NCBI RefSeq assembly: GCF_001995985.1
Contig: NZ_MUFC01000010.1
Coordinates: 1 to 64,000 of the forward strand
Length of the DNA stretch: 64,000 nucleotides
Source: Salinivibrio sharmensis
GTDB lineage: Bacteria; Pseudomonadota; Gammaproteobacteria; Enterobacterales; Vibrionaceae
Direction: 5' to 3'
In this document: positions 29,552-46,030 of the stretch, piece after piece
Layout of the letters: each line of letters begins with the position of its first letter
Numbering within the stretch: position 1 is the stretch's first letter
Program-made: the position numbers and the translations under genes
Notes under the pieces: model-generated
Seen by the model: the letters and a program-made list of their open reading frames with translations, nothing else
Told to the model about the DNA's origin: nothing
Database searches by the model: none

Positions 29552-30022
29552 TCAGTCACGCTTGCCAATCACCACTTCCCCTGATTGCTCAAACATAGCC
29601 ACTTCCTTGCGCCGGCGTCCCAGTAGAATAGGCTTATCGTCGTAGAATAGAAAGTTTTTCCAATACCGTTTAAATACGCCCCATTGGGTTTCGACGATAT
29701 TGTGTTTGTCGTAGCAAAAGTAGACCGTAATATTGTCTTCCCAAGGGAAATTAGCAAGAAACTCATCAGGAAGGTCACCGTCATCATCCCAAGCTTGTTG
29801 CCAAACCAGTCGCTGGGTCCAAACACTTTGCTGGGTCGGCCAATCTTGCTTACCAAAATGATCCGGTGTTGGGCTATCTTTGCTGATAAATTCTTGCCAT
29901 AGCTGCGCCGCACGTGCTTCTGTCATGGGTTTAATATCAGCCAGATCCTGTTCAGGAATAGGTAAAGACTGGTGGGTGAAGATCCACTTCCTTTTATATT
30001 CAGACAACGGGAGATAATTCAT
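29552..30022 (-). CDS. DUF2947-like small cytoplasmic protein
   Basis: A 156-residue acidic, tryptophan-rich protein (MNYLPLSEYKRKWIFTHQSL start, ITVYFCYDKHNIVETQWGVF in the middle, KNFLFYDDKPILLGRRR near the end). It resembles the DUF2947 proteins of Vibrionaceae, whose role is unknown. The chosen ATG is at 30022; a TTG three codons earlier is in frame but unlikely. No signal peptide. It sits alone after the haem operon. Confidence 0.65.
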   Translation of the reverse strand: MNYLPLSEYKRKWIFTHQSLPIPEQDLADIKPMTEARAAQLWQEFISKDSPTPDHFGKQDWPTQQSVWTQRLVWQQAWDDDGDLPDEFLANFPWEDNITVYFCYDKHNIVETQWGVFKRYWKNFLFYDDKPILLGRRRKEVAMFEQSGEVVIGKRD

Positions 30023-30116
30023 GCTAATCAAGTTCTACACTCTATGATGCCGGCAACTTTATCATATTCATCACTGGGTTGTTACCAAGTAAAACCCGAT
30101 TGAAGCGACGCAAGAG

Positions 30117-30138
30117 CGGCAATGCACACACATTGCCG
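30117..30138 (-). terminator. Hairpin after hutZ, possible terminator
   Basis: CGGCAATG and CATTGCCG pair around CACACA, about 20 bases after the hutZ stop on the minus strand. No strong T-run follows, so it is a weak candidate for the end of the hutAXZ transcript. Confidence 0.4.
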
Positions 30139-30157
30139 TTCGCATATGAGAACTTGA

Positions 30158-30727
30158 TTAGTCGTTAACCGCTATCTCATCGATCGAGAGAATATCCTGG
30201 CTGTCGCCAAGTTTTCGATGGCCCTGATCAAGGTGTACCATGTCGACAAAGTCATCACTGCCAACCTGAAAAGCCTGACCAAACCCTTTAACATACAAAC
30301 CGTTTTCCGGCTTTAGACGGAATAAATGGAAGTCAGCTAACCCGCTTAAGCTGTCGATAATATCGCCAAAGCGGTGGGTCAGCGCCGAAATCCCCATTTG
30401 CCACGCCGTGGTGTCACGCATCACTAATTCCGCATTGGCATCGAAACTAAGGCGCTGGCGCGCATAAATTTGTTTTGCCCCGCTTTCATCTTCGATCATC
30501 ATCAACGAAACCTGAGGATTTTGTTGTAAGTTCCGCGCATGACGAGCAATTTCACTGATTAAAATATAAAAACCGTCCTCTAGCTGTGCAAATGGCGCAT
30601 AACTCACGTTGGGTTTTCCTTGGGCATCGACGGTTGCGAGCTGCAAAGTCCGACAGTTAGCACGAAAGGCTTTGATTTCAGGGCCAAGGCGGTTTTGTAG
30701 GCGTTGTTGTTTTGTCGCTTGATCCAT
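30158..30727 (-). CDS. hutZ: Haem-degrading protein HutZ (HugZ family)
   Basis: A 189-residue protein of the HugZ/HutZ family with the split-barrel fold related to pyridoxamine-phosphate oxidase: TLQLATVDAQGKPNVSYAPF, ISEIARHARNLQQNPQVSLM, then the long C-terminal region RFGDIIDSLSGLADFHLFRL. HutZ of Vibrio cholerae binds haem handed over by HutX and breaks it down to release iron. It lies two bases after hutX on the same strand. HutW, the partner radical-SAM enzyme that often precedes hutX, is missing here. Confidence 0.9.
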   Translation of the reverse strand: MDQATKQQRLQNRLGPEIKAFRANCRTLQLATVDAQGKPNVSYAPFAQLEDGFYILISEIARHARNLQQNPQVSLMMIEDESGAKQIYARQRLSFDANAELVMRDTTAWQMGISALTHRFGDIIDSLSGLADFHLFRLKPENGLYVKGFGQAFQVGSDDFVDMVHLDQGHRKLGDSQDILSIDEIAVND

Positions 30728-30729
30728 GA

Positions 30730-31266
30730 TTATTGCTCCCGATCTGTTGCTGTTGAGGTCGCTAACTGCGTTTTTAGTTGATGGAATGCTTCAACCTGAT
30801 GGTCGAGAAGCTGACGTTTTTCATCACGCCCCAAGTAAATCTTAAAGATTGACTCCCCCTGCTCGGTGAAAAAGCCGATGTAGTGGGTTGTTTTACCGCG
30901 AAAAGGCTTGCTGACGAACGCAATACCCGCCATACGCTCTAATTTTAGGTGGCCATGCATTTCACCCGGCTTTCCCATTAAGTTGTAGTAGCCATAAGCG
31001 ATCTTTCCTTTGGGAAACGGGGCTTTTACTTCAAAAATTGAGCCACCGGAATGCACAATCGCTGTGACTGGGCCACCCCATTCGGCCACCTGAGTGAAAA
31101 CGGTTTCCGCATGCTGCCCGTCCACCCACGTTTGATACTCAGCCGGCATGGCACGTACTGCCTCGCCTTCACTCACGCCTAGGGTTTTCGCTATATCAGC
31201 AGGCAATATAGAGGCATTATCTGCCAATATTGCGTCTACCTGCTCGTTTAAAGTGGTGGTTGTCAT
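30730..31266 (-). CDS. hutX: Cytoplasmic haem carrier HutX
   Basis: The 178-residue protein matches HutX/HuvX: an N-terminal DNA-binding-like helical stretch (ILPADIAKTLGVSEGEAVRA) and the haem-binding domain with GGPVTAIVHSGGSIFEVK, GYYNLMGKPGEMHGHLKLE and FIGFFTEQG-type strands (HYIGFFTEQGESIFKIYLGRD). It receives imported haem and passes it to HutZ. The gene sits 77 bases after hutA on the same strand and is almost contiguous with hutZ. Confidence 0.9.
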   Translation of the reverse strand: MTTTTLNEQVDAILADNASILPADIAKTLGVSEGEAVRAMPAEYQTWVDGQHAETVFTQVAEWGGPVTAIVHSGGSIFEVKAPFPKGKIAYGYYNLMGKPGEMHGHLKLERMAGIAFVSKPFRGKTTHYIGFFTEQGESIFKIYLGRDEKRQLLDHQVEAFHQLKTQLATSTATDREQ

Positions 31267-31343
31267 TGATCACTCCCAGCCTATTCTTATTGTGGTGTGT
31301 CGTCTCTGAGTGGGCAGGCGTTCACCTGCCCTTTATCTTTGGC

Positions 31344-33392
31344 TTAAAACTGATAACGAACATTAAACTTAATATCACGCCCGGGTGACGCGGTTTGCGC
31401 CCACGCTTGGGTGTATTGTTCATCGGTTAAATTATCGATCGCGAGATAAAACTTCACCCCATCCCAGGCGCCATTCGGGCTATAACTTGCATAGAGATCC
31501 CACAAGGTATAGCCGTCGTAGCTGTTGGCATTATTCGTGTCGTCTTGATCGGCATAATGAGAAACGCGACCACCAACACTCACCGGTAACGTCGCCAGCG
31601 CGTAGTCGGTTTCCGCAACCCATTTATGAGCGGGAATATTATCTAGATAGCTGCCATCATGCTTATTCTTGCCTTCGGTTTGGCTATAGCTCACGTTGTT
31701 GGTAAAACCACCAAGTTGGTGATGAAGGCTTAGCTCGACGCCTTCAAGTTTGGCATCTTTAACGTTTTCACGCGTTGTTGTTCCTCTCTTCATATTGATG
31801 TTTTGATCTATATAATCATTAACATCGTTCCGGAAAATATGTATGTCTAAGAAAGCATTGTCAACATAACGTGTCGAGGCAAAGTGATAGTTCAGAGAAA
31901 ACTCTTTGTTAGCGCTCTCTTCTGGCCTCAAGTCGGGATTCGGCACAAATTGATTTCCGGGGAAGTGAGTACCACTCGCATACATTTCTTCTAAGCTCGG
32001 TGCCCGGAACGCCTCTCTATAACTGGCGGTGAGTGCGAGCTGCTCAGTGGCCTGCCAGGTTAACGCGGTGGAAGGCGACCACGCCGTGTCATCATGGTTA
32101 CCAATGGTCGATTCGGGTCGCTTATCTTTCGCATCATAGGCATCAAAACGGACACCCGCTTGCCAGTGCCATGCTTGTCCCAGCGGTACATCAACTTGGG
32201 TAAATAAGCCGACACTTTGTGCTTCGGCGTCTTGGTTATCTGGGCGACCAAACATCGAGCGACTGGCGTCTCGTACTGTCTCAAAGTTGTCTTGATAAGC
32301 ATCTAGGCCAGTGGTTAGTGTTAGTGCTTTAAACGTCGAGCGGTTCGATAAAGCCAAACCCAGCGTTTGCATCTGATTATTATCAAACTCACCTTTATCA
32401 ACCCGATGCTCATTGACCTCAGTGTCGTTCCAATACAGGCGAGTGTCTAAATCCACCCATGACTGGCTAGGGTTATAGTTGTACGTGAGCGACAGGCTTT
32501 GGTCTTCGACTTGGCGATACACAAGGGGCGACGAGGTTGACGGCTCTTCTGCCGTCGGATTAGAGGGAACCCTGGCGTCACGTTTACCTTGACGCGCGAT
32601 GAATGACCACTGGTGATCCAAAGAAGGCGTAAACACCAGTTTGGCAAACCCGCCTTTTTCTCGCTCGGCTGAATAAGACAAGGTTTTGCCATTGCCTAAT
32701 TGATTATCATCACTATCGTTGTAGTAACTTTGTACCAGCCAATCAACCGTCTCCGTGCGACCAAACACCGCGCCGCTTGTACGTGAGGCGTTGTCGTTGC
32801 TGTGGAAGCCTTGTTTGACATAACCACCCAAGGTTTCTGTGCCAGAGAGAAAGTCACTGGCTGATTTGGTATTTTGGGCGAATACACCGCCTAATGCACC
32901 GGATCCCCACAAGGTACTGGAAGGGCCACGGACCACTTCGACTGAACGGAGTAACTCAGGATCGATGAATAGGCTGGAACGATGGCCGACCGAGAAATTC
33001 TGACGGGCACCATCAACAAGCTGGATGACGCGGCCGTTGTCACTGCTAAGGCCACGAATGCTAACAGACTGAGCGGCATCACGCCCTCCTCCGAGTACGG
33101 AGACATTGGGTAAATGACGAATCAAATCCGTGACATTGCTTCCCTGGCGTTTCTCTATCTCTTCCAATGACACTGTACTCACCGCCACGCCAGCGTTCGC
33201 TTTTTGTGTGTCCATGCGGCTTCCGTAGACAGAGAGCGTCTCTACAGGATTAGCCTCTTGCGACTGGCTAGCGGCACTCGATCTATCAGCGACGGCCTGA
33301 GGTGTAACACTCATCGTACCCAATACAGCCGCGACTGCTAACGCGACACGGTGGTTATGCTTTACTGCCCAATTATCCTTTCTGGTTTTCAT
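31344..33392 (-). CDS. hutA: TonB-dependent haem/haemoglobin outer-membrane receptor (HutA-like)
   Basis: A 682-residue receptor with a signal peptide (cleavage region VTPQAVA near 36), a TonB-box-like stretch (ETLSVYGSR near 53), the plug domain (DLIRHLPNVSVLGGGRDAAQ, SIRGLSSDNGRVIQLVDGAR) and a 22-strand barrel ending in an aromatic residue (FNVRYQF). The sequence DLRPEESANKEFSLNYHF with nearby YREAFRAPSLEEMYASGTHF is typical of haemoglobin receptors. It imports haem through TonB. A Fur box lies 24 bases upstream and the divergent hutBCD genes complete the pathway. No tonB-exbBD is in the window. Confidence 0.9.
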   Translation of the reverse strand: MKTRKDNWAVKHNHRVALAVAAVLGTMSVTPQAVADRSSAASQSQEANPVETLSVYGSRMDTQKANAGVAVSTVSLEEIEKRQGSNVTDLIRHLPNVSVLGGGRDAAQSVSIRGLSSDNGRVIQLVDGARQNFSVGHRSSLFIDPELLRSVEVVRGPSSTLWGSGALGGVFAQNTKSASDFLSGTETLGGYVKQGFHSNDNASRTSGAVFGRTETVDWLVQSYYNDSDDNQLGNGKTLSYSAEREKGGFAKLVFTPSLDHQWSFIARQGKRDARVPSNPTAEEPSTSSPLVYRQVEDQSLSLTYNYNPSQSWVDLDTRLYWNDTEVNEHRVDKGEFDNNQMQTLGLALSNRSTFKALTLTTGLDAYQDNFETVRDASRSMFGRPDNQDAEAQSVGLFTQVDVPLGQAWHWQAGVRFDAYDAKDKRPESTIGNHDDTAWSPSTALTWQATEQLALTASYREAFRAPSLEEMYASGTHFPGNQFVPNPDLRPEESANKEFSLNYHFASTRYVDNAFLDIHIFRNDVNDYIDQNINMKRGTTTRENVKDAKLEGVELSLHHQLGGFTNNVSYSQTEGKNKHDGSYLDNIPAHKWVAETDYALATLPVSVGGRVSHYADQDDTNNANSYDGYTLWDLYASYSPNGAWDGVKFYLAIDNLTDEQYTQAWAQTASPGRDIKFNVRYQF

Positions 33393-33415
33393 AACGTTTC
33401 TCTATGCCTTACTGC

Positions 33416-33436
33416 AAATGCGACTTATCATCATTT
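33416..33436. promoter_or_regulatory. Fur box in the hutA promoter
   Basis: The 21-base palindrome starting AAATG and ending CATTT agrees with the consensus (AAATGATAATNATTATCATTT layout) at 16 of 20 defined positions. It lies 24-44 bases before the hutA start and so would block that promoter when iron is plentiful. Confidence 0.7.
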
Positions 33437-33470
33437 GAAGGCGATTCTATTGATCGAGAACAGGAATGCA

Positions 33471-33489
33471 AACGATAATTGATCTTGTT
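33471..33489. promoter_or_regulatory. Second, weaker Fur-box-like site near hutB
   Basis: AACGATAATTGATCTTGTT has a near-perfect left half (AACGATAAT) of a Fur palindrome and a poor right half. It is about 100 bases before hutB and could serve that promoter. Confidence 0.4.
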
Positions 33490-33592
33490 TGTATTGAGTA
33501 ATATATTGTCTCCGTTAACGTCACACGGTGTGGCGACCTAAACCGTATACAAACCAATCGACACGACTGGCACTGAAAAATAAGGATAAAGC

Positions 33593-34435
33593 ATGGCAAC
33601 CGCTGCTGTTCGACTGATTGCCCTGATGATGACACTCGTTTCATTTTCAATTTTTGCATCGCCTCGCATAGTGAGCGCGGGGGCAAGCGTTACTGATCTA
33701 CTGATTGAGCTTGGAGCAGAACAACAAGTTGTAGGGATTGACGCCACGAGCCAGCTAGATAGTAAAGATGTTCCCAATATTGGCTACCACCGTCAGCTGG
33801 CGGTAGAGGGTGTACTCTCACTGTCACCCACGCTTTTGTTAGGCTCTGAGGAAATGGGCCCCAAACCTGTATTAACAAAGCTCGACAATGCTGGGGTTGA
33901 GGTGGTTACGCTACCGAGTGCTCCGACGGTGGCGGCGCTGAAACAGCGCATAACCCAAGTCGCCAACCTCACAGAGAAACAAAGTAACGCAGCACCACTG
34001 CTCCGTGCGGTCGATAAGAAACTCGCGCAACTCAAACGTCATGCCCTAGCGTCGACACAACAGGGAGTTTTCTTGCTCGTTCACCAAGGCCGCCCTGCGA
34101 GTATTGCCGGAGCGAGCACAACGCCCAATACGCTCATTGAGCTTATCGGTGCGAATAATCCCGCCGCCAATACGGTTACCAGTTATAAACCCCTGTCACC
34201 GGAGGCGCTGCTCGGTTTTAACCCTGACTTTATTTTGGTGATGCAGCGCTCCCTAGATCAGTTAAGCGGCTTAACGGGGCTTGCCAGTGCTGTGCCTTTA
34301 CTTGAAAACACCCAAGCCTTTCAGCAAAACAAGATCCTCGCGATTGATGGCAGTGTATTGGTTGGCGGCTTGAGCCTGAAAACGCTAGATGAGGCGCTTC
34401 GTGTGCAATCACAGCTAATCGAGCGTAATCAGTGA
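33593..34435 (+). CDS. hutB: Haem ABC transporter periplasmic binding protein HutB
   Basis: A 280-residue binding protein of the HmuT/HutB class. It has a signal peptide (1-22), then RIVSAGASVTDLLIELGAEQ and VVGIDATSQ, the standard cluster 8 start for metal-chelate binders. The later LALSPE-like PLSPEALLGFNPDFILVMQ and AIDGSVLVGG segments fit HmuT. It passes haem to HutCD. It is divergent from hutA, after AATAAGGATAAAGC, and its stop overlaps the hutC start (TGATG). Confidence 0.92.
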   Translation: MATAAVRLIALMMTLVSFSIFASPRIVSAGASVTDLLIELGAEQQVVGIDATSQLDSKDVPNIGYHRQLAVEGVLSLSPTLLLGSEEMGPKPVLTKLDNAGVEVVTLPSAPTVAALKQRITQVANLTEKQSNAAPLLRAVDKKLAQLKRHALASTQQGVFLLVHQGRPASIAGASTTPNTLIELIGANNPAANTVTSYKPLSPEALLGFNPDFILVMQRSLDQLSGLTGLASAVPLLENTQAFQQNKILAIDGSVLVGGLSLKTLDEALRVQSQLIERNQ

Positions 34436-35469
34436 TGTCATTGCAGATACACCACCCATATCAGCGACTCTTTCCCGCGTTGCTTGTTCTATTGCTTGCC
34501 GTGTCAGTGGCCTCCATTGCGGTGGGACAATGGCAGCTAGGTTGGCTAGTCAGTTTACAAAGTTTAACGCCTTGGCAAGACCAGCTTGAGCCTCATGTAT
34601 TGGCCATCGTCCAGCAAGTCAGGCTACCTCGTACACTGCTTTGCTTATTTGTGGGCGCTTTGCTCGCTGTTTGTGGTGCTTTAATGCAAGGGCTTTTTCG
34701 CAACCCGCTCGCGGATCCTGGGATTATAGGCGTCTCTGGTGGCGCGTCTCTGGGCGGCGCTCTGGGGTTATTATTGCTGTCATTTGGCAGTATAAATTTA
34801 GCCTTTCAGTTATCCGTACCATTATTCGCTTTTCTCGGTGCGCTGTTAGCGACGCTATTTGTCTACCGAATTGGCACCACAGTGATGGGCACGTCCGTTA
34901 CCGTCATGCTATTAGCCGGTATCGCTATCAGTGCGCTATCAGGCGCGGCGCTGGGGATGATCAATTATGTGGCCGACAACCAAACCCTACGCGATATCGC
35001 GCTGTGGTCTATGGGGTCGCTGACCGGCGCCAGTTGGGGGCAAATAGGTTTAACCGGCGTAGCGGCTGTTGTCCTCACTGTGCTTGCTTATTGTCGGGCT
35101 CATCAACTGAATGCTTTATTGCTCGGTGAAAACGAAGCCGCGTATTTAGGGATCGATATTCACCGCCTAAAACGTTTGCTGATCATTGCGACCGCTGCTG
35201 GGATGGGCGTATCCGTTAGTGCTGCCGGGTTGATAGGGTTTATTGGCTTAGTGGTACCACATATTGGTCGCCTGATCGCTGGCCCCGATCACCGTATGCT
35301 TATCCCTTTATCAGCAGTATTGGGGGCACTTCTACTCACGCTTGCGGATATTATTGCTCGAGTGATTGTTGCTCCGGCGGAATTGCCAGTCGGCATCATT
35401 ACCGCTTTGATGGGCGCCCCCTTTTTTATTTGGCTGCTTATTCAGCAACGACAAACAATGGTACACTAA
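34435..35469 (+). CDS. hutC: Haem ABC transporter permease HutC
   Basis: A 344-residue FecCD/BtuC-type permease with about ten helices. RLPRTLLCLFVGALLAVCGA, then LMQGLFRNPLADPGIIGVSG is the family signature, and GLIGFIGLVVPHIGRLIAGP is the cytoplasmic coupling region. It transports haem across the inner membrane. I use the ATG at 34435 (coupled to hutB); a GTG one codon earlier is also open. Overlaps hutD by one base. Confidence 0.92.
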   Translation: MSLQIHHPYQRLFPALLVLLLAVSVASIAVGQWQLGWLVSLQSLTPWQDQLEPHVLAIVQQVRLPRTLLCLFVGALLAVCGALMQGLFRNPLADPGIIGVSGGASLGGALGLLLLSFGSINLAFQLSVPLFAFLGALLATLFVYRIGTTVMGTSVTVMLLAGIAISALSGAALGMINYVADNQTLRDIALWSMGSLTGASWGQIGLTGVAAVVLTVLAYCRAHQLNALLLGENEAAYLGIDIHRLKRLLIIATAAGMGVSVSAAGLIGFIGLVVPHIGRLIAGPDHRMLIPLSAVLGALLLTLADIIARVIVAPAELPVGIITALMGAPFFIWLLIQQRQTMVH

Positions 35470-36245
35470 TGGCTCGTATTGCGCTTCATGTTCAACACCT
35501 TCATTACACCCTTGGCCAACGCCCACTGCTTCGCGACATCAATGTCGCTTTTCAAAGTGGGCAGTTACATGCCTTACTCGGCCCTAACGGAGCAGGAAAA
35601 AGCACCTTGCTCAAGCAACTGATGAGTGAGCAGCACCAACAAGGCGACGTATTGTTTTGGTCAGAGCCAAAAGCGACATGGCCTCGCGACGCATTCGCGA
35701 GACAGGTTGCTTTTTTGCCACAAACCAGTGGGTTAACCTTTGCCTTTACGGTTAGAGAAGTCGTCGAAATGGGCGGCACCCCATTGAAAGCAAATCGTAA
35801 GCAAATCCAAGCGTTAGCCGAAGCGCAGTTACACCAATGGCATGTATCTCATCTTGCACATCGTGCTTACCCCACACTGTCGGGTGGTGAAAAGCAGCGT
35901 GTGCATATGGCTCGTATTTCCATGCAATTGGCGGACACCGAACCGACTCGTGCAATGATGATGCTTGATGAGCCGACATCTGCCCTTGATATTAGTCACC
36001 AACACCAAACGCTCATGCAGTGCCGGGCACTGGTTGATCTAGGAATGACCGTAATCATCGTACTGCACGACCTTAACCTTGCCAGTCGCTATGCTGATTA
36101 CCTCTATTTTATGAAACAAGGTGAAATGGTTCTCTCAGGAACGCCTTGGCAATGCTTTACTCACCACCAGATGACTGATATTTATCAACACCCACTGACA
36201 GTAATGACACACCCGACGCATGCTTGCCCATTGATAGTGACGTAA
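35469..36245 (+). CDS. hutD: Haem ABC transporter ATPase HutD
   Basis: A 258-residue ATPase of the FecE/HmuV type. It shows Walker A GPNGAGKSTL near residue 38, signature LSGGEKQRVHMARI near 140, Walker B MMMLDEPTSALDISHQ, and VLHDLNLASRYAD with the H-loop. The ATG at 35469 shares its first base with the hutC stop; an in-frame ATG at 35430 lies inside hutC. A small reading frame of uncertain reality follows right after the stop. Confidence 0.93.
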   Translation: MARIALHVQHLHYTLGQRPLLRDINVAFQSGQLHALLGPNGAGKSTLLKQLMSEQHQQGDVLFWSEPKATWPRDAFARQVAFLPQTSGLTFAFTVREVVEMGGTPLKANRKQIQALAEAQLHQWHVSHLAHRAYPTLSGGEKQRVHMARISMQLADTEPTRAMMMLDEPTSALDISHQHQTLMQCRALVDLGMTVIIVLHDLNLASRYADYLYFMKQGEMVLSGTPWQCFTHHQMTDIYQHPLTVMTHPTHACPLIVT

Positions 36246-37968: not shown

Positions 37969-38562
37969 ATGGATAAACCAGCTTTAAAAGACGCGATGCG
38001 TTTATTTGCCGAATTTGGCAATATCAAATCCCGATCCATGTTCGGCGGATTTGGCTTATTTTGCGAAGACACCATGTTCGCCCTTGTCGTCAACAACACT
38101 CTTCACCTACGCGCAGGCAAAGAAAACGAAGCGTTACTAAAGCAGCAAGGCTTAGCCCCTTATGTGTATAAAAAACGTGGATTTCCGGTGGTCACCAAAT
38201 ACTTTGCCATTCCTGATGGTTGGTGGGACGATCACCAAAAGCTCATCAATGAAGCTAAAAATGCACTCGATGTTGCCATTCGCGATCGTTCGCTAAAGAC
38301 CGAAACCAGTCCGTCGCGATTAAAAGACCTGCCAAACCTTCGACTAGCCACCGAAAGAATGCTGAAAAAGGCAGGGATTGACACTCCCGAAACGCTGCAA
38401 AAACATGGCGCAGTCAACGCATACAAAGCGTTGGTATCTGCGCATGATACAGACCTAAGCTTGGAGCTCTTATGGTCACTCGAGGGTGCTATCACAGGCA
38501 AACACTGGTCAGTTGTCCCTCCCCAACGCCGCCAAGAGTTATTACAACATCTAGAGAAATAA
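37969..38562 (+). CDS. tfoY: TfoY, TfoX/Sxy-family regulator
   Basis: A 197-residue regulator with the TfoX N-terminal domain (about 1-100: [40 protein letters not shown]) and C-terminal domain (about 110-197: [40 protein letters not shown]). Position after purR and behind a cyclic di-GMP riboswitch fits TfoY of Vibrio cholerae rather than chitin-regulated TfoX. In Vibrio cholerae TfoY promotes type VI secretion and motility at low cyclic di-GMP. The start at 37969 aligns with the family; an in-frame ATG at 37915 would fall in the leader. A terminator follows. Confidence 0.9.
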
Positions 38563-38623
38563 CACCTCACAATAACACTCTCTACTCTGACTCTACTTTT
38601 TCTGTGAGCAATGTTCGCGTCCA

Positions 38624-38653
38624 ACACCGCCTTTAAGGCGGTGTCGCTTTTTC
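38624..38653 (+). terminator. Terminator after tfoY
   Basis: ACACCGCC and GGCGGTGT pair around TTTAA, followed by CGCTTTTTC. It lies 62 bases after the tfoY stop. Confidence 0.85.
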
Positions 38654-38853
38654 TGAACGCACTAAACGCTCAATAAATCATCATTCAAACTAATTTCAGA
38701 CAGAAAACGAAAGTTTCTTGCGATCGGTCGGGTCTGGTTAAAGGTACGATTAAGGACACAGTTCCTCAATGTAACCGACAAATCAGCCAGTTAATTCAGC
38801 TACAGTACCTAAAGTAATAACTGGAACCCATTTACTATCGGACGAGACACAGT

Positions 38854-40989
38854 ATGCCAGTAAAAAAGATATTGCTTGGTTTAGTGGTGGTGGCGCTTGT
38901 AACACTTTGGTTCAGTTTAGATCTCAGCCAGTGGCTCACGCTTGAAAACGCCAAAGCACAACAAGTGGCATTGAATGATTACATTATCGAAAACGCGACC
39001 ACCGCAAGCCTGGTGTTTTTTGTCGGCTATGTAGTGATGACCGCCCTGTCCTTACCGGGTGCGGCAGTGGCGAGTTTATTGGGCGCAGCACTCTTTGGCT
39101 TTTGGTGGGCATTGGTGTTGGTCTCCTTTGCTAGCTCGATTGGCGCCACCCTCGCATTCTTGGTGAGTCGCTTTATGTTGCGCGACTGGGTCCAAGCCAA
39201 ATTTGGTAATAAGCTAGACACCATTAATCGCGGCATAGAGAAAGACGGTAGCTTGTATCTGTTAACCCTCCGCCTGATCCCGATTTTCCCGTTTTTTCTG
39301 ATTAACTTGGTGATGGGGCTAACCTCGTTCAAAACCCGCACCTTCTATTGGGTCAGTCAGCTCGGTATGTTGCCGGGTACCGCAGTCTACGTGAATGCAG
39401 GGACCCAACTGGCCCAAATCGACGCACTTGGCGACGTGGTGTCACCCTCGGTGCTTGGCTCACTCGCCTTACTGGGTGTCTTCCCACTGCTGGCAAAGTG
39501 GGTTTTGGCGTGGATCACGCGTCGTAAACGCTATCAAGGTTGGAACAAGCCCCATCAGTTTGACCGCAATATGGTGGTGATTGGTGCCGGTGCAGGCGGC
39601 TTGGTATCAAGTTATATCGCGGCGGTAGTGAAAGCGAAGGTTACGCTGGTCGAAAAAGGTTCGATGGGAGGAGACTGCCTAAACACAGGGTGTGTTCCCT
39701 CAAAAGCGCTGATCCGTGCGGCGAAAACCATGCGAGAAATTGGCAAGGCTAAGACGTTTGGCATTCATACCCAAGCGCCAGCGGTTGATTTTCCGACGGT
39801 CATGGCGCGGGTTAAGCAAGTCATTACCCAAATTGAGCCTCACGATTCGGTCGAGCGTTACACCAAACTCGGCGTGGAGTGTGTGCAAGGCGAAGCGCAA
39901 ATCGTTTCGCCATGGGAAGTCGAGGTGAATGGCGAACGCCTCACTACCCGCAACATCGTGATTGCGACCGGCGCACGCCCTATGTTGCCCCCGATTCCTG
40001 GTTTGGCTGAGGTCACGCATTACACCTCGGATACGATTTGGTCTTTGTCTGAACTGCCACCACGATTATTGGTTTTAGGCGGGGGGCCTATTGGCGCAGA
40101 GTTAGCGCAAAGTTTTGCGTGTTTAGGCAGCCAAGTCATCCTGGCAGAAATGGCCGACCAACTTCTCAGCCGTGAAGATAAAGATGCCGCCCAGTTGGTT
40201 GAGCAGTCGTTAGAGCGTGACGGCGTGACGGTTTTAACACAGCACAAGGTCAAAGCATTTGAGCACAGTGATAATGAGCAAATCGCCTTACTCGACGGCC
40301 CTGACGGTGAGAAAACCGTCACATTTGATGCGGTGCTGGTCGCGTTAGGACGCAGCGCCAATACCAAAGGTTTTGGTCTCGAAAAGCTCGATATTCCAGT
40401 GACCGAGCGTGGCACAATTCAAGTCAACGAGTATCTGCAAACCGCCTACCCGAATATCTATGCGGTAGGTGATGTAGCGGGTCCGTTTCAGCTCACCCAC
40501 GCCAGTGCTCATCAAGCATGGTATGCCGCGGTGAATGCACTATTCGGGCAATTTAAACGCTTTCGTGCCGATTATTCTGTGATGCCTGCAGCTACCTATA
40601 CCTCTCCGGAAGTAGCCAGAGTGGGCATCAATGAGAAGGAAGCCAAGGCTCAACAACAAGACGTCGAAGTCACCTACTACGGCATTGATGATCTGGATCG
40701 CGCGATTGCTGATGGTAATGATCACGGCTTTATTAAGGTGCTGACACCGAAAGGAAAAGATACCATTCTAGGAGTAACTATTGTTGGCGAACATGCGGGC
40801 GACTTACTCGCAGAATTCACCCTCGCAATGCGGCATGGATTAGGACTAAATAAAATCTTAGGCACCGTCCATCCGTACCCCACCATGAGTGAAGCGGTGA
40901 AGTATACCGCCGGGATGTGGAAACAAGCCCATGCGCCCGAGAAGCTGCTTCGATGGGTCGAAAAATATCATCTTTGGATGCGTCACTAA
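38854..40989 (+). CDS. VTT-domain membrane protein fused to a dihydrolipoamide/mercuric-reductase-like flavoprotein
   Basis: A 711-residue fusion. Residues 1-225 are a VTT/TVP38 (DedA-superfamily) membrane unit with helices and the SRFMLRDWVQAKFG and LRLIPIFPFFLINLVMGLTS signatures. From about 240 there is a complete pyridine-nucleotide disulfide oxidoreductase: FAD motif VIGAGAGGL, redox pair C-LNTG-C near 275-280 (GGDCLNTGCVPSKAL), NAD motif GGGPIGAE near 409, ATYTSPEVARVG near 581, and the dimer-domain HPYPTMSEA active-site base near 673. The two cysteines suggest an active disulfide reductase working at the membrane. Substrate unknown. It leads the ynjBCD-F operon (18 bases to ynjB), and the same pairing is seen elsewhere in Gammaproteobacteria. 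Confidence 0.85.
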   Translation: MPVKKILLGLVVVALVTLWFSLDLSQWLTLENAKAQQVALNDYIIENATTASLVFFVGYVVMTALSLPGAAVASLLGAALFGFWWALVLVSFASSIGATLAFLVSRFMLRDWVQAKFGNKLDTINRGIEKDGSLYLLTLRLIPIFPFFLINLVMGLTSFKTRTFYWVSQLGMLPGTAVYVNAGTQLAQIDALGDVVSPSVLGSLALLGVFPLLAKWVLAWITRRKRYQGWNKPHQFDRNMVVIGAGAGGLVSSYIAAVVKAKVTLVEKGSMGGDCLNTGCVPSKALIRAAKTMREIGKAKTFGIHTQAPAVDFPTVMARVKQVITQIEPHDSVERYTKLGVECVQGEAQIVSPWEVEVNGERLTTRNIVIATGARPMLPPIPGLAEVTHYTSDTIWSLSELPPRLLVLGGGPIGAELAQSFACLGSQVILAEMADQLLSREDKDAAQLVEQSLERDGVTVLTQHKVKAFEHSDNEQIALLDGPDGEKTVTFDAVLVALGRSANTKGFGLEKLDIPVTERGTIQVNEYLQTAYPNIYAVGDVAGPFQLTHASAHQAWYAAVNALFGQFKRFRADYSVMPAATYTSPEVARVGINEKEAKAQQQDVEVTYYGIDDLDRAIADGNDHGFIKVLTPKGKDTILGVTIVGEHAGDLLAEFTLAMRHGLGLNKILGTVHPYPTMSEAVKYTAGMWKQAHAPEKLLRWVEKYHLWMRH

Positions 40990-41007
40990 TTGAAAAGGAA
41001 AACGACA

Positions 41008-42156
41008 ATGAAACATTGGATAGCGGCCATCACATTGGCGATCGCAAGTTCCGCCAGTTTTACTGCCTCTGCGAACACGGAAAACGACAGTTGGGAAAGT
41101 ATTCAGCAACAAGCCAGAGGCCAAACCGTGTATTTTAATGCATGGGGGGGAAGCCAAGAGATCAATGCTTACCTTCGCTGGGCAAGTCGAGAGCTGCAAC
41201 GTGAACATGGGGTGACATTAGAGCATGTAAAAGTGGCGGATATCGCTGAAACCGTGAATCGCCTGCTTGCTGAAAAAACAGCCGGTAAGGATAGCGGCGG
41301 CAGTGTCGACATGGTTTGGATTAACGGCGAGAACTTCAAATCAATGAAGGAAAATGATTTGCTGTACGGTCCTTTTGTTAGCACACTTCCCAATTGGCAA
41401 ATTGCCGATAAAAGCTTACCGGTTGAAGAAGACTTTACGGAACCAACAGACGGCCTCGAAGCGCCTTGGGGGGTTGGACAGCTGGTCTTTATCCATGATC
41501 AGAAAACCTTGGCCAATCCACCTCGATCGTTTGCTGAGCTGCTCAATCTCGCACACGCAAATCCAGGCAGAGTAAGTTATCCAAAACCACCACAGTTTCA
41601 TGGAACCAGTTTTTTAAAAGCCGCGTTGCTTGAGCTAACAAATTCGCCTGAAGCCCTGTACCTACCCGTTGAAGACGTTGACTTTGACGCCGTGACCGCA
41701 CCTCTTTGGCAATACCTAGACAAGCTTCATTCCGTGGCTTGGCGTGAAGGTACGCAGTTTCCCTCTAGCAGCGCTGAAACCCTACAACTGCTAGATGATG
41801 GCGAGCTTCTCGTTGCGATAGCATTTAACCCCAATGCGGCAAAAGCAGCGGTAGCCTCTGGAAAACTCGCCTCGTCAGCGCGTGCGTTTGCCTTTGACCA
41901 AGGCGCGCTATCTAACATTCACTTTATGGCGATTCCATACAACGCCAACGCTAAAGCCGGCGCTATGGTCGCTATCAATTTCTTGATGAGTGAAAAGGCA
42001 CAACTGCGCAAAGCCGACACCCAAGTATGGGGCGATCCACCGGTTGTTAAATTATCCGACACCGCCGAGGTCAGTCGCTTTAACACTCAGCCCGAGCCAC
42101 ATCCAAGCTGGCAAACCGCGCTTGAGACTGCTTGGCTGAAACGCTACGGCCAATAG
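41008..42156 (+). CDS. ynjB: YnjB, periplasmic binding protein of the Ynj ABC transporter
   Basis: A 382-residue binding protein with a signal peptide (1-22, ending SFTASA) and the YnjB-type mature start (GQTVYFNAWGGSQEINAYLR, VADIAETVNRLLAEK). The family belongs to the thiamine/iron/polyamine-type binders. WGDPPVVKLSD near the end is also typical. The ATG at 41008 has AAAAGGAAAACGACA before it; a TTG six codons earlier is open. It follows the fusion flavoprotein by 18 bases, and ynjC begins 13 bases after it. The E. coli ligand is unknown. Confidence 0.87.
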   Translation: MKHWIAAITLAIASSASFTASANTENDSWESIQQQARGQTVYFNAWGGSQEINAYLRWASRELQREHGVTLEHVKVADIAETVNRLLAEKTAGKDSGGSVDMVWINGENFKSMKENDLLYGPFVSTLPNWQIADKSLPVEEDFTEPTDGLEAPWGVGQLVFIHDQKTLANPPRSFAELLNLAHANPGRVSYPKPPQFHGTSFLKAALLELTNSPEALYLPVEDVDFDAVTAPLWQYLDKLHSVAWREGTQFPSSSAETLQLLDDGELLVAIAFNPNAAKAAVASGKLASSARAFAFDQGALSNIHFMAIPYNANAKAGAMVAINFLMSEKAQLRKADTQVWGDPPVVKLSDTAEVSRFNTQPEPHPSWQTALETAWLKRYGQ

Positions 42157-42169
42157 AAAAGAGGCTAAT

Positions 42170-43879
42170 ATGGCACGTTTGCTGTTTGCCATTACCCTGA
42201 CGGTATGCTGCCTACCCTTGTTACCTGGGGTGGGCGGCTTGATTACCACCGCCTTTGCGTTCGTGCCCACACTGGGGCTCACGGAGGCTAGTTTGAGCGG
42301 CTGGCGACATGTGATCGCATGGCCGGGCCTGTCTCAATCGATTCAGCTTACACTTATCTCGGGATTAGGCAGTAGCCTGCTCGCGGTAGCACTTAGCTTT
42401 ATGATTTTACAGGCCACTTGGCAAACGCCCATTTGGCATAAGATCAGTGCACGCTTGCCCGCGCTACTGGCATTGCCACACGTCGCCTTTGCCATTGGTC
42501 TGGTTTTACTGCTTTCCCCCTCGGGTTGGCTGTTTCGCCTGTTAAGTCCCCTTCTCGGTGATAAACCCGTGACTTGGGCGCTGGTGCAAGATCCTTATGT
42601 TATCGGGCTCACCTTGGCGCTGACGCTAAAAGAAACCCCATTTTTACTATTGATGAGCCTGTCGGTACTGCGTCAAATTGATGTCTCTCGGCTGACGATG
42701 GTATCAACCAGCCTTGGGTATAATCACACCGCGACCTGGCTCAAAGTCATCCTACCGCTTTGGCTCGCTAAAATGCGTTTCCCGATTTTTGCCGTCATCG
42801 CCTACAGTCTGTCAGTGGTTGATGTGGCAATGATCCTCGGGCCCAATACGCCGCCTACTTATGCGGTATTGGTATGGCAGTGGTTTAACGACCCTGATTT
42901 AGCGCTATTGCCCAGAGCCTCAGCAGGTGCCTTGCTGTTATTTGCCCTGTGTGGCTTTGCCTTATTGCTGTTTCGCTGTTTGGCGTGGCTTGGTTGCCAA
43001 GTTCTCAATCGCTGGCAATATACGGGACGCCGCTACGCCTGGTTACCCGGCAAAGTATTCTGGTGGCCCGTATTTATCACTCCCCTTGCGATTATGCCTG
43101 TGTTGCTGGTGTGGTCTTTCGCGCTGCGTTGGTCATTTCCCGATTGGTTACCCAGTCGATATAGCTTACGGTTTTGGGAACAAGAGCTTAGCTATGTGTG
43201 GTCACTAGTAGGAAACAGCATTGTGCTGGCGGTGATCAGTGCCAGTGTCGCCTTGCTGTTTGCCATCGGGTGTTTGGAGCGCTCGGTCAATCAGCGACGC
43301 TCAGTACCGAGAGCGGTCATCGCCATTCCATTATTGGTTCCTCAACTCTCTATCTTGTTTGGCATTCAGGTGGCGGTGTATAGCCTCCCCGGCCAGTGGC
43401 ACGTACCGGCAACCCTTTGGGCTCACATTTTTTTCGCGTTTCCTTATGTGTATCTCGCACTCGATGGGCCGTGGCAGCAATTTGATGTGCGGCTTATGCA
43501 AACCGCCAGAAGCCTCGGTGTCAGTGCCACACTCGCATGGTGGCGGGTTAAACTGCCGCTGCTTTTGCCCGCCATTATCTTGGCATGGGCGGTTGGTGCG
43601 AGTGTCAGTTTGGCACAGTACCTACCCACACAATTGCTGGGCGCGGGACGTATTAATACGCTCACTACCGAGGCAGTCAGCTTATCAAGCGGTCTCGATC
43701 GTCGTATCAGTGGCCTATATGGGCTGATGCAAGCGATGCTTCCCCTTATTGTTTTCGCCTTAGCCACTGTGCTGAGCCGCATCGCTGAGCGTCGCCTTTT
43801 ACCTACATCAACACCAACTATCTCAGGAGCTCAACGCCATGACACTGTGTGTCAACCAACTCACCATAAACGCGCCTGA
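42170..43879 (+). CDS. ynjC: YnjC, double-length ABC transporter permease
   Basis: A 569-residue permease with two fused halves, about 12 helices in all, each with an EAA-like loop (VSTSLGYNHTATWLKVILPL near 180 and RSLGVSATLAWWRVKLPLLL near 455). This is the fused layout of thiamine/iron-type permeases such as ThiP and E. coli YnjC (511). Its 3' end overlaps the ynjD start by 41 bases, so translation is coupled. Imports the YnjB ligand. Confidence 0.88.
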   Translation: MARLLFAITLTVCCLPLLPGVGGLITTAFAFVPTLGLTEASLSGWRHVIAWPGLSQSIQLTLISGLGSSLLAVALSFMILQATWQTPIWHKISARLPALLALPHVAFAIGLVLLLSPSGWLFRLLSPLLGDKPVTWALVQDPYVIGLTLALTLKETPFLLLMSLSVLRQIDVSRLTMVSTSLGYNHTATWLKVILPLWLAKMRFPIFAVIAYSLSVVDVAMILGPNTPPTYAVLVWQWFNDPDLALLPRASAGALLLFALCGFALLLFRCLAWLGCQVLNRWQYTGRRYAWLPGKVFWWPVFITPLAIMPVLLVWSFALRWSFPDWLPSRYSLRFWEQELSYVWSLVGNSIVLAVISASVALLFAIGCLERSVNQRRSVPRAVIAIPLLVPQLSILFGIQVAVYSLPGQWHVPATLWAHIFFAFPYVYLALDGPWQQFDVRLMQTARSLGVSATLAWWRVKLPLLLPAIILAWAVGASVSLAQYLPTQLLGAGRINTLTTEAVSLSSGLDRRISGLYGLMQAMLPLIVFALATVLSRIAERRLLPTSTPTISGAQRHDTVCQPTHHKRA

Positions 43880-44510
43880 TCAATGCTTGGTGCGTGATTT
43901 GTCATTTTCGGTCGCCCCGGGAGAAATACTTACTGTGATGGGACCCAGTGGCTGCGGAAAATCCAGCCTACTGAGCGTAGTGGCGGGACACATCCAACCG
44001 CCCATGCATTACAGCGGTCAACTGACGTTAAATGGTGAGCCCTTTGATCACTTACCGCCTGAGCAGCGCCGCATCGGGATTTTGTTTCAAGATGATTTAC
44101 TCTTCCCGCATTTAAATGTGTGGCAAAACTTGGCGTTTGCCTTGCCATCATCGATGAGCAAACTACAAAAACGCGATCAGGCTATTGCGACATTAGGGTC
44201 CGTCAAACTAGCGGAGTTTGCCGATTATGCCCCTAGCCAGCTTTCGGGCGGACAGCGTGCGCGAGTCAGTGTGTTGCGTGCATTACTCGCCGCCCCCGAT
44301 GCTATCTTGCTTGATGAGCCCTTTAGTAAGCTGGATAAGCCGCTGCGTCGGGATTTTCGGGCCTTTGTGTTTGAGCAAATCGCGCAGCGAAACATCCCTG
44401 CGTTGATTGTGACGCATGATGCCGAGGATATTGCGGATCAGAGCCGCTGTTTAAATTGGCCTAAACGCCCAGCTGACTCAGCACTGCAAGAGGAGATACA
44501 AAATGCTTGA
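43839..44510 (+). CDS. ynjD: YnjD, ABC transporter ATPase
   Basis: A 223-residue ATPase. Walker A GPSGCGKSSLLS near 35, signature SQLSGGQRARVSVLRALLA near 130, Walker B AILLDEPFSKLDKPLR, and VTHDAED. It has the short single-domain length of YnjD (217). AGGAGCTCAACGCC precedes the ATG at 43839, which is inside the end of ynjC. The last 8 bases overlap ynjF. Confidence 0.9.
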   Translation: MTLCVNQLTINAPDQCLVRDLSFSVAPGEILTVMGPSGCGKSSLLSVVAGHIQPPMHYSGQLTLNGEPFDHLPPEQRRIGILFQDDLLFPHLNVWQNLAFALPSSMSKLQKRDQAIATLGSVKLAEFADYAPSQLSGGQRARVSVLRALLAAPDAILLDEPFSKLDKPLRRDFRAFVFEQIAQRNIPALIVTHDAEDIADQSRCLNWPKRPADSALQEEIQNA

Positions 44511-45129
44511 TCGCTATGCCATCGCGGTGATCCGCTGGCCATTGAAGCAGGCAGCGGTGCAGCTCACAAAGTGGAAGGTAAAACCTGATACCGTAACATT
44601 GTCAGGCTTTGTGATTGGCTTACTGGCCGTGCCTGCGCTAGCGCTACAAATGTATTGGCTGGCGCTTGTGTTTATTATCATCAACCGACTTTTCGATGGC
44701 CTCGATGGCGCGCTCGCCCGCGAGCAAGGGCTCACGGACGCTGGGGGGTTTTTAGACATTACCCTCGATTTTATCTTCTACGCTGCCATTCCTTTTGGCT
44801 TTGCCTTGGCCGATCCGACCAGCAACGCCATTGCTGCCAGTTTTTTGCTGTTTTGCTTTATGGGGACAGGCGCAAGCTTTTTAGCGTTTGCGATCATGGC
44901 CAGCAAACACCAGATTGATAACCCGGTTTACGCCAACAAGTCGATGTATTATATCGGCGGGATCACCGAAGGGACGGAGACCATTGCAAGCTTTGTGTTG
45001 ATGTGTATTTTCCCTACCTACATGGCGTGGATTGCCGGCATTTTTGGCGCAGCCTGTTTAATCACCGCCGCCTCACGAGTTTGGGCGGGCTATCATACCT
45101 TGCGTACACTCGATACGCCCTCCTCCTAG
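44503..45129 (+). CDS. ynjF: YnjF-like CDP-alcohol phosphatidyltransferase
   Basis: A 208-residue membrane enzyme with the CDP-alcohol phosphotransferase motif D-x2-D-G-x2-A-R-x8-G-x3-D-x3-D, seen as DGLDGALAREQGLTDAGGFL followed by DITLD near residues 65-89. Such enzymes join an alcohol head group to CDP-diacylglycerol or a similar donor in the membrane. Helices flank the motif, as in PgsA and PssA. In E. coli ynjF also ends the ynj cluster, while ynjE is missing here. A head group brought in by YnjBCD would be a possible substrate, which is inference. The stop is one base from the convergent punR stop, with no terminator between. Confidence 0.85.
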   Translation: MLDRYAIAVIRWPLKQAAVQLTKWKVKPDTVTLSGFVIGLLAVPALALQMYWLALVFIIINRLFDGLDGALAREQGLTDAGGFLDITLDFIFYAAIPFGFALADPTSNAIAASFLLFCFMGTGASFLAFAIMASKHQIDNPVYANKSMYYIGGITEGTETIASFVLMCIFPTYMAWIAGIFGAACLITAASRVWAGYHTLRTLDTPSS

Positions 45130-45130
45130 C

Positions 45131-46030
45131 TTATAGCCACTGGTGTTGCAGCTGCTCTTTATCGCCTAAATAATCGAGCAGCCAGCGCACCGGTGGTGAT
45201 TCTTTATCCGAGCGCCATGCAATGCAGCACGGACTGCTTAATAACGGCTCTTCAAGGACAAGCTCCACCAACTCTCCTCGCGCAATCGCATCTTCTGCCA
45301 TGTGTGAAGGCATCACACCAATGCCCAGCCCGGCCTTAAAACATTGCATGGCACTGTGCCAATTGGGGACGGTAAGACGGCGCTGATTATCCAGTAGCCA
45401 TGTCGTACGACGCGGCAAGCGGCGCGAAGTGTCTTCCAAACAGATAGCCGGATACGGCGCAAGCTGCTCATTGGCCAGTGGTTGGGTGCATTGGACGAGT
45501 GGATGCGACGGGCTCACCACAAACCGCCAGCGTAGGGTGCCCATTTCCCGATAGCGAAACGCGCCGCTCACTGGCACAGCAGCCGTGGCACCAATCGCAA
45601 TATCGGCTCGATCATCAGCCAGTGCATCCCATACGCCGTTAAACACTTCCATGGTCAGCAACAATTCGACATCAGGAAACGCATCGTAAAAATCCCGCAC
45701 CAACGTATTGACGCTATCTTCGCGCACGACGTTATCCAGTGCCAACGAGACACTTTGTGTCCAACCGTTGGCCACTCGCTGCGTTTGCTGGCGAATGGCT
45801 TCCATATTTTTAATCATCTCACGTGATTGAGAGACAAAGTATTCTCCTGCCGACGTCAACCGCACTTGGCGGTGAAGTCGCTCAAACAGAGTAACGGCCA
45901 GTTTGTCTTCAATCTGTCGTACCGTGTAACTCACCGCGCTCGGTACCTTGTGCAATTCATCGGCCGCCGCAGAGAAACTTCCTCGCCGCGCAACCACATC
46001 GATCACATGAAAATCTTGGTAAGAAAACAT
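45131..46030 (-). CDS. punR: PunR, LysR-family regulator of punC
   Basis: A 299-residue LysR regulator with the N-terminal helix-turn-helix (GSFSAAADELHKVPSAVSYT) and inducer domain (VVREDSVNTLVRDFYDAFPD, VELLLTMEVFNGVWDAL, EDTSRRLPRRTTWLLDNQ). These segments match E. coli PunR/YdhB almost motif for motif. PunR activates punC in response to adenosine. The start at 46030 aligns with E. coli; an in-frame start at 46054 adds eight residues. Divergent from punC with a perfect inverted repeat between them. Confidence 0.87.
   Translation of the reverse strand: MFSYQDFHVIDVVARRGSFSAAADELHKVPSAVSYTVRQIEDKLAVTLFERLHRQVRLTSAGEYFVSQSREMIKNMEAIRQQTQRVANGWTQSVSLALDNVVREDSVNTLVRDFYDAFPDVELLLTMEVFNGVWDALADDRADIAIGATAAVPVSGAFRYREMGTLRWRFVVSPSHPLVQCTQPLANEQLAPYPAICLEDTSRRLPRRTTWLLDNQRRLTVPNWHSAMQCFKAGLGIGVMPSHMAEDAIARGELVELVLEEPLLSSPCCIAWRSDKESPPVRWLLDYLGDKEQLQHQWL

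Follow-up and report, generated by a model that had tools for sequence, protein, structure and literature searches.

The 64,000-nucleotide stretch of Salinivibrio sharmensis analyzed here (the window; the genome containing it measures 3.33 Mb) carries a five-gene, plus-strand operon that we tentatively read, at somewhat less than even confidence, as a system for head-group acquisition and phospholipid assembly. Its genes encode, in order, a VTT membrane domain fused to a flavoprotein, the importer proteins YnjB, YnjC and YnjD, and the CDP-alcohol phosphatidyltransferase YnjF (Table 1). They span 38854-45129 and, by the open reading frame (ORF) calls, are at most 18 bases apart or overlap, which confirms the tight operon outlined in a preliminary description of this DNA made from the sequence alone; the six gene families named there are actually five genes, VTT and flavoprotein being a single ORF. 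The fusion-B-C-D-F order recurs both within the genus and beyond it, and the arrangement is therefore not due to chance. The evidence centers on YnjB and YnjF, importer and lipid synthase, which look like one functional pair.

To assess how strictly the two proteins occur together, we compared an even sample of the order (the order sample; 197 genomes, 80 genera), in which YnjB and YnjF are present in the identical 72 genomes, with a symmetric difference of 0 and 20 of the 80 genera each (Fisher p = 1e-55, not corrected for kinship). The genes lie within 8 kb of each other in 54 of these genomes, and in the other 18 they are farther apart but both kept. A 61-genome sample of relatives, overlapping the order sample, gave YnjB in 39 genomes and YnjF in 39. 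Across 50 of 80 named contig loci (Gamma- and Betaproteobacteria, Thermodesulfobacteriota, SAR324 and others), genome-wide searches recovered YnjF in 48 of the 50 YnjB genomes. Where C and D accompany B at a contig locus (n = 66), F is found within 9 kb in 53; eight of the 13 loci without it were searched genome-wide, and F was located elsewhere in seven. The class sample (229 genomes) yielded eight matches to YnjB and 13 to YnjF. Five of the latter, at 96-106 bits, are weak and resemble paralogues, while seven of the other eight (above 200 bits) occur together with YnjB. Its exceptions are one genome (G145) with a weaker YnjB match (303 bits) and no YnjF, and one (G165) showing the reverse. 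These counts bear out the earlier proposal that importer and CDP-alcohol transferase belong together: the pairing is well supported, the chemistry is not.

Regarding the synthase, the CDP-AP motif D-x2-DG-x2-AR-...-G-x3-D-x3-D is intact in all 116 aligned YnjF sequences (112 distinct in their C-terminal part), the window protein contributing D65, D68, G69, A72, R73, G81, D85 and D89. The YnjF model (pLDDT 90.8) has as its closest solved folds the phosphatidylinositol-phosphate (PIP) synthases RsPIPS (5d92) and MtPIPS (6h59), with query TM values of 0.69-0.76. YnjF shares with these enzymes the fold, the motif and R192, the equivalent of MtPIPS R195, which is kept in 27/27. Changing R155 or R195 severely lowers MtPIPS activity, and both residues are tied to inositol-phosphate binding (PMC4634129). 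YnjF appears to differ in the ERxER stretch that contains R155, which reads (L/I)xE(G/A/S)xET in 116/116 rows; RsPIPS GIAERSERLV is aligned to YnjF GLTEGTETIA in a sub-threshold second profile segment that a further set of alignments does not show, and the 4mnd alignment has a gap there. YnjF thus appears to lack one of the two phosphate-binding arginines. Because the R155 equivalent would be Gly, Ala or Ser while R192 matches R195, the alignment hints at an acceptor different from that of PIP synthases, perhaps a non-phosphorylated one. Also in favor of lipid building, a PF04116 (fatty-acid-hydroxylase family) gene lies near or beside ynjF in three of 20 further ynjF loci, from two tree groups (Table 1); the L189 locus additionally holds DUF1365 and a PNPOx-like gene.

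Turning to the importer, YnjB scores 531.1 bits against NCBIfam NF008633 (PRK11622; cut-off 203), and its model (pLDDT 92.7) adopts the solute-binding protein fold. W52, W110, N112, N115, E157, W160, W251 and N309 are invariant in the putative cleft loops, placed from predicted secondary structure, and basic residues there are few; such a composition would suit a ligand that is neutral or cationic. Neither sequence nor fold singled out a ligand, the former giving just weak PDB matches to aminoethylphosphonate (AEP)- and polyamine-binding proteins plus a few others, the latter a tie between maltose (Z 28.5) and AEP-type (Z 28.0) binders. YnjC resembles PhnU2/PotC-type permeases at scores far under their cut-offs, and the NCBIfam equivalog cut-offs of thiamine, AEP, polyamine and sulfate importers were reached by neither the permease nor the ATPase (for the latter, among the best 25 of 181 families). 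The nearest Foldseek matches of YnjB include AEP-type, iron, thiamine, hexose-phosphate and P5PA binders. They fit an alternative in which YnjBCD takes up a nutrient or the precursor of a cofactor that never enters a lipid, while YnjF makes a minor phospholipid needed by the transporter or a partner. Such an arrangement would account for the co-inheritance without shared chemistry; however, we know of no precedent for an importer with its own lipid synthase and consider it unlikely. At two contig loci (L056 and L104), a lone ynjB adjoins genes of about 228 and 473 amino acids, with ynjF elsewhere in the genome; reading of the sequences suggests that those of L056 encode a response regulator and a sensor kinase, and ligand sensing is possible. 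YnjBCD is also enriched in one Marinobacter clade (PMC9207381).

In contrast to the strict YnjB-YnjF pairing, the VTT/redox part is a changeable partner of YnjBCD-YnjF. The fusion or a part of it occurs in 64 of the 197 order-sample genomes (partial or flavoprotein-only matches in G053, G058, G301 and G370 included), namely in 56 of the 72 with YnjB versus 8 of the 125 without (odds ratio 51, not corrected for kinship); 28 of the 56 genomes that have both place it no more than 8 kb from ynjB. It adjoins ynjB in Salinivibrio, Enterovibrio, Photobacterium, Psychromonas and Aeromonas, directly adjoins ynjF with no ynjB near in three genomes (G493, G503 and G288), and stands beside ynjF alone in a Hydrogenophaga. 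Among the 80 contig loci, 24 have the fusion at a distance of up to 10 kb, 14 of the 24 have an AhpD-like ynjA as well, and none has ynjA near ynjB without the fusion; E. coli and the L188 locus have ynjA without it. Genome-wide, the fusion or its flavoprotein part was found in 31 of the 50 contig genomes. On a quick YnjF tree (98 rows after thinning near-identical proteins from 118, L176 included), fusion linkage requires 11 changes, at least three of them forced by well-supported branches, and has therefore been gained or lost several times.

Other loci pair the same core with different redox proteins. Six Vibrionaceae loci (L061, L065, L066, L069, L113 and L118) encode a rhodanese, a GltD-like Fe-S flavoprotein, an HdrB-like CCG protein and a VTT protein, followed by ynjBCDF; oriented on ynjB, this operon occupies about 4.5-13.5 kb in the first four, with families scanned in L065 only. 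GltD-like, HdrB-like and separate VTT genes also accompany C-D-F at L079. Of 80 chosen genomes, nine have the HdrB-like protein, among them none of the 18 that lack YnjB, and its gene lies near ynjB or ynjF in 9/9; many Vibrio carry B-C-D-F with neither fusion nor HdrB-like protein. No redox module is common to all loci. The preliminary description had counted a flavoprotein occurring in relatives without the ynj genes and without linkage among the signs against a joint system. This is in part what half of the co-occurring genomes (unlinked) and the eight YnjB-negative genomes show, although most YnjB genomes do have the fusion. Under the corresponding alternative, the fusion would be an independent protein clustered with the ynj genes by operon shuffling, leaving only YnjBCD-YnjF as a unit. 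In keeping with this, five of 20 additional loci (L195, L198, L199, L200 and L210) show the fusion followed by a related gene (DUF547, PF04784, in L198, the sole copy scanned). We think the shuffling alternative improbable given the strong co-occurrence with YnjB, the adjacency to ynjB in five genera and to ynjF alone in Hydrogenophaga, and the fact that E. coli and the HdrB-type loci have VTT as a partner too. Variant layouts include a split form of the fusion, in which neighboring genes encode VTT and flavoprotein separately (L185, L202, L212, L213 and L094), a VTT part alone preceding ynjBCDF (L051), and a cluster lacking ynjB in which ynjA-ynjF is joined by a VTT gene and, in convergent orientation, an ynjE-like gene (L188:8263-11801, from the genome of L130, Enterobacteriaceae bacterium B14).

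Within the fusion protein, the PF09335 (VTT) match reaches 80.1 bits (curated cut-off 33.9) and belongs to a COG0398-like DedA membrane domain, with S66-x-P68-G69-A70 and L-R140-L-x-P143-x-x-P146-F-F near-invariant in the alignment. COG0398 proteins lack the acid at the first re-entrant tip and at least one of two basic residues at the second (PMC10127716); the first stretch of the fusion has no conserved acidic residue, its re-entrant tips being positioned by eye and not from a structure. An RRKR stretch follows the last VTT helix and suggests, by the positive-inside rule for membrane topology, that the flavoprotein lies on the cytoplasmic side. This C-terminal part, residues 229-711, is a class-I pyridine nucleotide-disulfide oxidoreductase, which we aligned in 81 rows (74 fusions above 690 amino acids, 69 of them distinct in the C-terminal part; six separate flavoproteins above 450 amino acids and 50% identity; and the window protein). 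The redox pair C275/C280 (CxxxxC) and E680 are kept in 81/81 rows. Behind the second Rossmann motif, 69 of 81 rows have Glu at position 432; since Glu there as a rule favors NADH, the domain is probably NADH-type.

The catalytic-base position, by contrast, holds Tyr (Y675) in all 81 rows, where the lipoamide dehydrogenase 2eq6 has His and MerA (5x1y) has Tyr. The His of HPTxSE is the catalytic residue of lipoamide dehydrogenase, so that, of the apparently active disulfide reductase first proposed, the cysteine pair stands and the usual base does not. The protein marginally passes the dihydrolipoyl dehydrogenase model TIGR01350 (412.5 bits, cut-off 408.8) and falls below that of MerA (TIGR02053; 408.5 bits, cut-off 454.45), with which it shares CxxxxC plus Tyr. 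MerA bears a C-terminal Cys pair, whereas no Cys occurs within the last 30 residues of any of the 74 fusions. Judged from the Tyr in place of His and the missing C-terminal Cys, the flavoprotein does not qualify as a proper lipoamide dehydrogenase, and it falls short of a complete MerA. A system for redox or metal stress, in which a MerA-like reductase acts on a soft electrophile (metal, metalloid or persulfide), the importer serves the same chemistry and YnjF and VTT adjust the membrane, would suit the Tyr and the redox or sulfur proteins found as partners in relatives (AhpD-like YnjA, rhodanese, HdrB-like and GltD-like), but is the least probable of the alternatives in view of the Cys-free C-terminus, the missed MerA cut-off, the absence of an N-terminal metal-binding domain among the Pfam matches of the fusion, and the retention of YnjF in many YnjB genomes whose redox part is absent or unlinked.

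The unit is conserved and apparently coupled, and it is already known as genes. In E. coli K-12 the order is xthA, ydjX (DedA/VTT), ydjY, ydjZ (DedA/VTT), ynjA, ynjB, ynjC, ynjD, ynjE and a convergent ynjF (b1750-b1758 from ydjX to ynjF); YnjB shares 48% identity with the window protein (others in Table 1), and the VTT proteins YdjX and YdjZ likewise lie inside the operon. E. coli differs in its separate VTT genes, in having YdjY and YnjA where the window has the fused flavoprotein, in the presence of ynjE and in the opposite strand of ynjF. As the preliminary description had noted for YnjE, tblastn (E <= 1e-4) found no homologue of YnjE, YnjA or YdjY within the 64 kb, the portion of the genome searched for them. 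The ydjXYZ-ynjABCD genes are listed among operons directly activated by FNR (PMC3688515), and BaeR raised ynjA 1.6-fold and ynjB 1.4-fold, possibly indirectly (PMC2731931). We found no tested function for E. coli ynjB, ynjC, ynjD, ynjF, ydjX or ydjZ, and no paper on YnjF, in the open-access literature. A selenium role for the ydj/ynj genes was considered and dropped, as GutS is yhfC (PMC4009273). Fusions of COG0398 DedA to PF07992/PF02852, with the same architecture as here, were described by Todor et al. 2023, whose text draws no tie to ynjBCD-ynjF in its parts 1-2 of 4 (PMC10127716). That subfamily is tied to aerobic metabolism, whereas the E. coli operon is FNR-activated (PMC10127716, PMC3688515). 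Hence the suggested undescribed lipid or redox system is a reasonable candidate for head-group uptake and lipid building, but its gene set is known from E. coli and its fusion is in print.

If the operon does acquire head groups and assemble phospholipids, YnjB-YnjC-YnjD would import a small polar alcohol or amino-alcohol, and YnjF would attach to it, at the inner leaflet, a phosphatidyl group taken from CDP-diacylglycerol. The product lipid or a precursor could then be shifted between leaflets by the VTT domain, and the NADH-type flavoprotein may supply electrons on the cytoplasmic side for an accessory step on head group or lipid, with a disulfide, a metal-thiolate or another electrophile as target. 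The closest system that works alike is choline uptake by ChoXWV with phosphatidylcholine synthase (Pcs), which combines ABC head-group import with a CDP-diacylglycerol alcohol transferase of different protein subfamilies. We regard as rather doubtful the more specific proposal that YnjBCD-YnjF is an undescribed, widespread importer-synthase pair, shared by E. coli, which takes up an alcohol or amino-alcohol without a phosphate for a phospholipid whose head group would be new to these bacteria, while VTT proteins with exchangeable redox modules translocate this lipid and maintain its working redox state.

Several points weigh against head-group uptake and lipid assembly. E. coli lipids are well studied, yet we know of no YnjF product. 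A YnjF match is absent from two of the 50 YnjB genomes, those of Kandeliimicrobium (L165) and Vreelandella (L172), and the YnjB fold is tied among sugar, phosphonate, iron and thiamine binders. The redox part is dispensable, as 16 of 72 YnjB genomes lack the fusion and 26 of the 32 Vibrionaceae tested that have no fusion are without the HdrB-like protein too; conversely, the fusion or a part persists in the YnjB-negative genomes mentioned above. In a review table, YnjB is entered as homologous to a polyamine-binding protein of Streptomyces (PMC9397018). The ynjB deletion falls in the weakest class of 37 ciprofloxacin-sensitive Keio mutants, a phenotype uninformative about lipids (PMC13131330), and ydjX and ydjZ insertions caused no significant change under honey (PMC8803141).

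Table 1. Features of the operon region in the window and PF04116 genes at other ynjF loci.
Feature	Position	Strand	Details
Terminator-like stem-loop, tfoX/operon interval (upstream border)	38624-38644	+	9 pairs, 6 GC
VTT/flavoprotein fusion, 711 amino acids	38854-40989	+	VTT_dom + Pyr_redox_2 + Pyr_redox_dim (Pfam)
YnjB periplasmic solute-binding protein	40990-42156 (longest frame, TTG)	+	SBP_bac_8; NCBIfam PRK11622
YnjC double-length ABC permease	42170-43879	+	33% identity to E. coli YnjC; no Pfam match
YnjD ABC ATPase	43839-44510	+	ABC_tran; 46% identity to E. coli YnjD
YnjF CDP-alcohol phosphatidyltransferase	44503-45129	+	CDP-OH_P_transf; 61% identity to E. coli YnjF
PF04116 genes near ynjF	L185:9993-10790; L189:6880-7665; L194:3932-4750

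At the locus itself, YnjB likely starts at ATG 41008 rather than at TTG 40990, which gives a signal-peptide-like N-terminus (MKHWIAAITLAIASSASFTASA) and a gap of 18 bases to the fusion. The YnjB-YnjC gap is 13 bases, and overlaps of 41 and 8 bases join YnjC to YnjD and YnjD to YnjF. Upstream, a LacI-type gene and tfoX precede the terminator-like stem, a pattern no more frequent in the window than in shuffled sequence; downstream, a convergent punR (score above the PunR family cut-off) begins at 45131, and the MFS gene divergent from it owes the name punC to gene position only. No FNR-like site was found in 38560-38853 with up to two mismatches, and a sigma-70 promoter scan of 38500-45300 gave 0 matches against a shuffle mean of 5.6. 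Sites resembling TTGATNNNNATCAA with up to two mismatches number 73 in the window against a shuffle expectation of 35.8, a count that none of 100 shuffles reaches, and six one-mismatch sites fall within 30018-36188, where most of the signal lies; codon use may cause the excess. Among the named contig matches listed, which may omit nearer records, the closest is Salinivibrio socompensis (YnjB 77% identity).

The near-strict co-inheritance of an importer and a CDP-alcohol transferase offers a concrete route to a missing phospholipid pathway. Todor et al. 2023 place COG0398 nearest to TMEM41B and VMP1 among the bacterial DedA subfamilies (PMC10127716), and such a pathway would give COG0398 proteins a bacterial setting. 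As E. coli K-12 shares the core, the predicted undescribed membrane lipid is testable there.

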